Part shown: positions 14,414 through 14,590 of the stretch, piece by piece | How the letters are laid out: each line of letters opens with the position of its first letter | How positions within the stretch are numbered: position 1 is the first letter of the stretch | NCBI RefSeq assembly: GCF_014205135.1 | Contig: NZ_JACHMY010000001.1 | Coordinates: 4,650,001 to 4,714,000, forward strand | DNA from: Kribbella italica | GTDB lineage: Bacteria > Actinomycetota > Actinomycetes > Propionibacteriales > Kribbellaceae | Direction of reading: 5' to 3' | Length of the DNA stretch: 64,000 bases | Program-made: the position numbers and the translations under genes | The notes under the pieces: generated by a model | What the model was told of the DNA's origin: nothing | Seen by the model: only the letters and a program-made list of their open reading frames with translations | Database searches by the model: none

Positions 14414-14590
14414 TCCCACGCGCGCTCCGCAGCCGCCTTCCGTCGCTCCGCTCCTCCAGACGGCCACTCCGCCCGCTCCCGCCCACCCTCCGGCTTATCG
14501 CCGGCGGTGAGTTGCCTGCTTGGCGCAGGCGTTGGCCGGCTGGCGCCGGCGTTGGCGGGCTACCGCCCGCAGGTGCGCGCTGACGCGCGG
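14414..14590. repeat. Dispersed structured repeat, copy A
   Basis: Gene-free stretch behind the eno promoter. It shares TCCCACGCG (14414), a cttccgtcgc-like block and CGCTCCCGCCC (14474-14484) with a second copy at 49660, in the same order. The right part is a run of short hairpins at about 20-nt period: CCGGC-ttatc-GCCGG, GCCTGC-ttggc-GCAGGC, GCCGGC-tggc-GCCGGC, GCGGGC-tacc-GCCCGC and GCGCGC-tgac-GCGCGG. Stem sequences change while pairing is kept, which suggests selection on structure. Confidence 0.55.

Follow-up and report, generated by a model that had tools for sequence, protein, structure and literature searches.

What are the small hairpins that stand in a row in this part of a Kribbella chromosome, and do they belong to something larger? 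The window, by which we mean the whole 64-kb stretch of DNA that was analysed, corresponds to positions 4,650,001–4,714,000 of a single 8,885,108-base contig. Within it, copy A (positions 14415–14589) starts with a C-rich head of 74 nt, after which come five mini-hairpins. The copy lies upstream of what we take, by eye, to be an enolase gene on the minus strand. The interval that the original prediction had singled out for its hairpins starts with this head, which is part of the same repeat. Copy A is composed as follows:

14415–14488, plus strand: head (type 1), with the tip CCCACGCG at 14415–14422
14424–14430, plus strand: GCTCCGC, the first copy A example of GCTNCGC, a motif of telomere type that reads GCGNAGC on the minus strand
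14432–14438 paired with 14458–14464: central stem of the head, GCCGCCT/AGACGGC, with one mismatch
within the head: a conserved loop around GTCGCTCCGCTCCTC and a C-rich end, CTCCCGCCCACCC
14445–14451, plus strand: GCTCCGC, the second copy of the motif, within GTCGCTNCGCTCCTC, a pattern that recurs, as GTCGCTTCGCTCCTC, in the ends of the Rhodococcus plasmids pRHL1 and pRHL3
14490–14504, minus strand: mini-hairpin 1, stem 5 bp, minus-strand loop GATAA (5 nt)
14514–14530, minus strand: mini-hairpin 2, stem 6 bp, minus-strand loop GCCAA (5 nt)
14535–14550, minus strand: mini-hairpin 3, stem 6 bp, minus-strand loop GCCA (4 nt)
14555–14570, minus strand: mini-hairpin 4, stem 6 bp, minus-strand loop GGTA (4 nt)
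14576–14589, minus strand: mini-hairpin 5, stem 5 bp, minus-strand loop GTCA (4 nt)

The claim of five consecutive hairpins was borne out, since 5 perfect hairpins compare with a mean of 1.3 and a maximum of 4 in 500 dinucleotide-preserving shuffles of positions 14480–14600, and the constancy of geometry claimed for them is visible in their stems (5, 6, 6, 6 and 5 bp) and loops (5, 5, 4, 4 and 4 nt). A second copy had been placed at 49660. There is indeed a relative of copy A there (copy B), but it is diverged, with a shorter, type 2 head and four hairpins that are less regular than in copy A; as called, a G..A loop on the minus strand is seen in just one of these. Its head starts 31 bases past a tRNA-Gln gene (49557–49629), and its parts are:

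49661–49718, plus strand: head (type 2, diverged), with CCCACGCG, then GCTCCGC at 49695–49701, then CTCCCGCCCGCCC
49754–49830, minus strand: hairpin array, with hairpins at 49754–49767, 49775–49790, 49793–49806 and 49815–49830

Searches beyond the window showed that these copies have many relatives. A 221-base query found five further strong places in the same genome, and a profile built from seven heads recovered seven strong heads there (E of 9e-18 or better; next hit 0.003). Among the weaker hits in this genome, five, copy B included, consist of the shorter, related type 2 head followed by hairpins, and one locus (L012) has a type-1 head and then a second type-2 head. The head profile matched 30 of 58 related genomes, namely 29 of 37 from the genus and one, weakly (6e-4), of 21 from other genera. 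Matches per genome ranged from none to at least 72 (G011, where all 72 scored candidates matched). An exact-pattern scan of 84,980 species returned 27 stretches, every one of them from Kribbella; this pattern recovers well under half of the known modules (it has 40 distinct sites in the set of loci used for this comparison), so absence outside Kribbella holds for close matches only. Two module queries gave no significant match in 72,556 plasmid DNA records (best E 0.02), and one exact pattern had no match in viral contigs. The modules are thus a real, dispersed repeat family in Kribbella chromosomes, as had been proposed from two copies, with further members in the genome and the genus and with constrained hairpins. 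The family is apparently undescribed so far, searches of open-licence papers having listed none that describes it by title or abstract.

Each module is 150–250 nt long and comprises the tip, the C-rich head and the tandem row of mini-hairpins. Among 71 type-1 heads, GCTNCGC occurs three times in 35, twice in 30 and once in 6, its variable base being C in 71 cases, A in 66, G in 22 and T in 12. By a strict core rule, arrays contain up to ten mini-hairpins, and 24 of 95 arrays contain fewer than two. Of the 71 heads, 69 keep four or more C-runs of at least 3 nt, and the opposite strand could accordingly form a G-quadruplex, with a possible i-motif.

That the stems vary in a compensatory manner was confirmed across the family. 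For the family-wide counts of core motifs, loops, GCTNCGC per module and gene orientation given here and below, nhmmer hits scoring below 26–28 bits were set aside first, as were repeats of the same context and any module truncated at the edge of its locus. In 333 core motifs from 95 modules, the Watson–Crick fraction at the three positions beyond the core was 0.904/0.880/0.829, far above the 0.609/0.529/0.687 obtained by randomly re-pairing left and right flanks and the 0.363/0.345/0.310 at 2931 occurrences of the same core elsewhere, with the qualification that the hairpins are related by descent and the covariation cells are therefore not independent events. The central stem of the head has a modest but real excess of pairing (451 Watson–Crick cells against 404.6 expected from shuffles, sd 5.5). 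A wobble asymmetry in this stem (on the plus strand, 78 C.A cells and 2 G.T) was considered as a mark of strand-specific selection and rejected, because shuffles give 87.6 C.A and 15.2 G.T, making it mostly a matter of base composition. Folding energy over whole stretches backs the hairpin structure in part. With DNA parameters, z-scores for the plus (tip) and minus (G..A) strands were -1.77/-1.88 for copy A, -0.65/-0.41 for copy B, -2.93/-2.54 for L009 and -1.11/-2.08 for L010, with no consistent strand difference across these four modules.

The loops are strongly polar with respect to strand. In a survey of perfect hairpins with at least five pairs and an unconstrained loop, 95 modules contained 302 hairpins, a density of 3.18 per 160 bases that compares with 1.03 in the 93 stretches used as control. 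A G..A loop was found on the minus strand in 236 of the 302, on the plus strand in 3 and on neither in 63 (hairpins duplicate one another, and the 236 are not independent events); control stretches gave 6, 9 and 81. The strand that carries these G..A loops has the tip at its 3' end, and the first and last loop bases stay fixed while the stems and the rest of the loop vary. GCTNCGC is one-sided to the same degree, with 2.69 occurrences per module on the tip strand and 0.09 on the other (95 modules), compared with 0.11/0.15 in controls. In RNA, GNRA loops require a purine at the third position, whereas, of the 174 GNNA tetraloops that belong to the 25 commonest module loops, 147 have a pyrimidine (C or T) there. 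In DNA, c(GNNA)g tetraloops are stable, and d(GCGNAGC) forms an extra-stable hairpin.

These properties bear on the function suggested originally, a platform for RNA or nucleoid binding, and on the related idea of a REP/BIME-like repeat. Tandem hairpins of conserved geometry would suit either, as would the stable RNA folds of the copy A minus strand (z -3.38 over 14414–14562, against 0.27 on the plus strand) and of the copy B plus strand (z -2.29). The tetraloops nevertheless deviate from the GNRA pattern of RNA, and the only feature in the window to reach an Rfam gathering score is tRNA-Gln. Loops and GCTNCGC are strand-polar in the way of linear-replicon ends, and the inverted pairs and presence/absence polymorphism described below point to the ends of an element that is mobile or derived from linear DNA. 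A REP/RAYT system was rejected, its Y1 transposase being present in just 1 of 38 genomes, and that one lacking any module match. We regard this group of explanations as highly improbable.

Modules occur singly, in tandem or as convergent, mirror-image pairs with the tips outward; among the matches listed, a hand count of neighbours within 1.5 kb gave 10 convergent, 1 divergent and 11 tandem arrangements. In short pairs (0.65–1.2 kb), the outer 140–260 bases are common to the copies and the middle mostly is not. The middles of eight pairs, searched against ten genomes, match only themselves, pieces of modules or a separate small repeat, and their unique stretches measure 191–541 bases. Genes lying between heads that are far apart were considered as cargo and rejected at the one site compared closely (L069 against L190), where they belong to the host backbone, and any pair that spans much more than 1.2 kb is accordingly treated as uncertain. 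One pair filler (L079, about 2155–2262) holds another dispersed repeat of about 90 bases with inverted halves, CGAGTCGTGG and CCACGACTCG, which has 73–84% matches in several Kribbella genomes.

A comparable layout is known from the ends of linear replicons. Passages of published work describe actinobacterial invertron telomeres as inverted repeats with a central GCTXCGC motif (PMC7276702), and Streptomyces telomeres as tandem palindromes within about 150–180 nt, with loops of 3–4 nt, mostly GNA, and compensatory changes (PMC4513846, PMC7205883, PMC8743542). We compared the modules with a small, hand-chosen set of eleven ends from ten linear plasmids and one circular control. Four of the records were taken from weak-hit lists, and some records in the set may miss the last bases of the true end. 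GCTNCGC was confined to the tip strand in the first 300 bases of 9 of the 11 ends (42 occurrences against 0); the polarity was absent (0 against 1 each) at two Streptomyces dengpaensis ends, which have CTTG loops. The longest word common to the 71 heads and to the first 400 bp of the ends of the Rhodococcus plasmids pRHL1 and pRHL3, two ends that resemble each other, is GTCGCTTCGCTCCTC (15 nt), from the region of the head that is best conserved. Control stretches of the same two plasmids share 9 to 12 bases with the heads, and the other linear ends share 10 to 13, at most 3 above their own controls. The pattern GTCGCTNCGCTCCTC is absent from 95.5 kb of linear-plasmid interior and occurs once in the 64-kb window, in the head of copy A.

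The modules are not, on the other hand, the telomeres of Kribbella chromosomes, a possibility that was ruled out because they lie inside the chromosomes and because Tap and Tpg (NF047542, NF047541) are found over cut-off in none of 38 Kribbella genomes; for the same reasons we do not file them as telomeres. The Tap and Tpg models do match plasmid Tap and Tpg proteins, but they match none of 14 control genomes. Below the cut-off, Tap had matches in five genomes (best 52.7 bits) and Tpg in one. That best match, at L291 (G007:C2:1147380–1147847), is a Tap-like fragment with an internal TGA, perhaps a linear-plasmid relic; the stretch fetched around it contains no module head. The protein-primed polymerase model PF03175 had no match in the 38 genomes and was equally silent in control genomes, which makes it uninformative. 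In five genomes that each consist of one contig, the outer 1.5 kb at all ten ends is free of module heads. For K. flavida, the genome paper presents a circular map, and telomeres are nowhere mentioned in its main text (PMC3035274).

The modules might instead be nothing but relics, that is, ordinary linear-plasmid ends that were captured at chromosome breaks, have since decayed and are neither active nor functional today. Such an origin fits the telomere-like ends, the unique fillers, the scars, the copies in decay and the one degenerate Tap-like fragment. It accounts poorly for a genome with at least 72 matches (all scored candidates), for unique stretches of only a few hundred bases in the eight pairs, and for differences in occupancy between close relatives, and we judge it unlikely.

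Comparison of orthologous sites provides a record of such differences, closely related species differing in module occupancy. At L067, two convergent genes have touching stop codons (frames read by eye) in the empty species G005, whereas in G013 they are separated by 1.2 kb between two bounding modules; what is left in G023 is a truncated head, and in G026 a remnant of 17 bases that starts CCCACGC. At L064, the place of the modules of G013 and G014 is taken precisely, in G023, by a palindrome of 12 bases, CCCACGCGTGGG, and at L069 a 1-kb pair lies between stop codons in G011, with a short stretch containing CCCCCCGCGTGGGG in G002. These site palindromes have the form that deletion between the two palindromic tips would leave behind, or they could be the original targets. 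At the orthologous copy A site, a profile search of 30 loci detected a head in no genome but that of the window, with a trace in G006, which is the nearest relative among the genomes compared and has a truncated element there. In this region (window 14280–14700), most relatives, though some differ, have an apparent kptA (RNA 2'-phosphotransferase) gene upstream of enolase, and this kptA-like gene seems to be deleted where the module sits, in the window genome and in G006 (gene names assigned by eye). Across species, the series of full, single-ended, scarred and empty sites makes both gain and loss traceable.

Presence and absence at orthologous sites, long inverted ends, and tandem and apparently nested copies would also be expected of a MITE-like non-autonomous DNA transposon, in which case the hairpins would lie in the terminal inverted repeats by chance and the likeness to telomeres would reflect convergence on stable hairpins. 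Against this, the middles differ between copies where a MITE family should share its interior, occupied and empty sites at several loci show no clean target duplication, and no partner transposase is known (Y1 alone was searched for). The strand polarity of loops and motif is likewise unexpected for an ordinary inverted repeat. We consider a MITE-like origin a rather unlikely alternative.

Several modules abut stop codons or follow tRNA genes, which raises the further possibility of a transcription-termination or 3'-end element acting after genes, with a C-rich Rho-type site followed by hairpins. On the 3' side of tRNA-Gln, at 30 loci inspected by eye (window 49557–49720 and its orthologues, L113–L142), a module head was found in 10, a canonical terminator-like hairpin in 18, neither in 2 and both in none; the genomes with modules are clustered by kinship, and this exclusion represents few events. 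At the tRNA-Phe site, by contrast, a terminator-like hairpin already precedes the module and the two coexist. No T tract follows the hairpins of copy A, and the orientation of modules relative to genes is weakly biased, the nearest upstream gene pointing towards the head in 48 of 88 cases and away in 31, with none called in 9 (crude gene calls). A terminator role at particular sites is possible, while as an explanation of the family we find it very unlikely. At another tRNA locus (L011:1405–1985; G000:C1, about 4646404–4646984), two modules stand in tandem behind tRNA-Leu(UAA), and after each of them the 3' end of the tRNA is repeated in degenerate form, as read by eye, in a way that resembles the attachment-site duplications of an integrative element.

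The reading that we favour, at close to even confidence, is that the modules form the terminal inverted repeats, telomere-like in build, of an element that is dispersed and probably mobile, and that they act as single-stranded DNA hairpins. Inverted pairing together with presence/absence polymorphism suggests that they are the ends of an element that is mobile or derived from linear DNA. They are built like telomeres and probably derive from, or work like, the ends of linear replicons; most likely they serve an element that is, or once was, mobile as its recognition ends, and are read in single-stranded form. Their layout would then be that of an actinobacterial linear-replicon (invertron) telomere, in which the 3' overhang folds into GNA-capped hairpins read by terminal proteins, and the Kribbella hairpins may similarly be recognised, as single-stranded DNA, by a putative replication or transposition protein. 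The tip palindrome CACGCGTG gives both ends an 8-bp direct repeat, slippage across which could delete the rest, and single modules and scars would be the products of such deletions. Counting against this telomere-like reading are the internal position, the lack of Tap and Tpg over cut-off and of any mobiliser in the searches made, the predominance of 4-nt GNNA loops, folding energies that fail to tell the strands apart, the poor loop polarity of copy B and the fact that copies A and B in the window are both unpaired. To our knowledge, tandem modules in the same direction are not typical of telomeres either.

A more far-reaching proposal, which we put forward as a rather doubtful one, is that the modules represent a new class of mobile DNA, namely small telomere-ended elements that would multiply inside apparently circular Kribbella chromosomes, with single-strand hairpin ends of the linear-replicon type, a putative terminal-protein-like or HUH-like enzyme, and unrelated DNA captured between the ends. 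If the ends are indeed of telomere type, some species of these soil actinobacteria carry dozens of telomere-like sequences within their chromosomes, which would bear on the origin of actinobacterial linear replicons, on the movement of telomeres between replicons and on whether telomere-ended DNA can be a mobile element.

Among known systems, REP/REPIN (BIME) sequences are, like the Kribbella modules, intergenic palindromes dispersed through the genome in inverted pairs, but the modules are much longer and the RAYT (Y1) transposase is all but missing from their hosts (1 of 38 genomes). With MITEs they have in common that they are mostly non-coding, possess inverted ends and vary in presence at orthologous sites; they differ in the unshared middles of the pairs and in showing no target duplication. 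Unlike invertron telomeres, they are internal to the chromosome and present in many copies, several with fillers of only a few hundred bases, their loops are mostly 4-nt GNNA instead of 3-nt GNA, and their hosts lack Tap and Tpg over cut-off. Like those telomeres, as found in Rhodococcus pRHL1 and pRHL3, Streptomyces linear plasmids and Arthrobacter pAL1, they confine GCTNCGC to the strand with the tip at its 5' end, pack tandem palindromes into about 150–200 nt, carry G..A-capped loops on the 3'-end strand above covarying stems and, in the short pairs, have inverted repeats at both ends.
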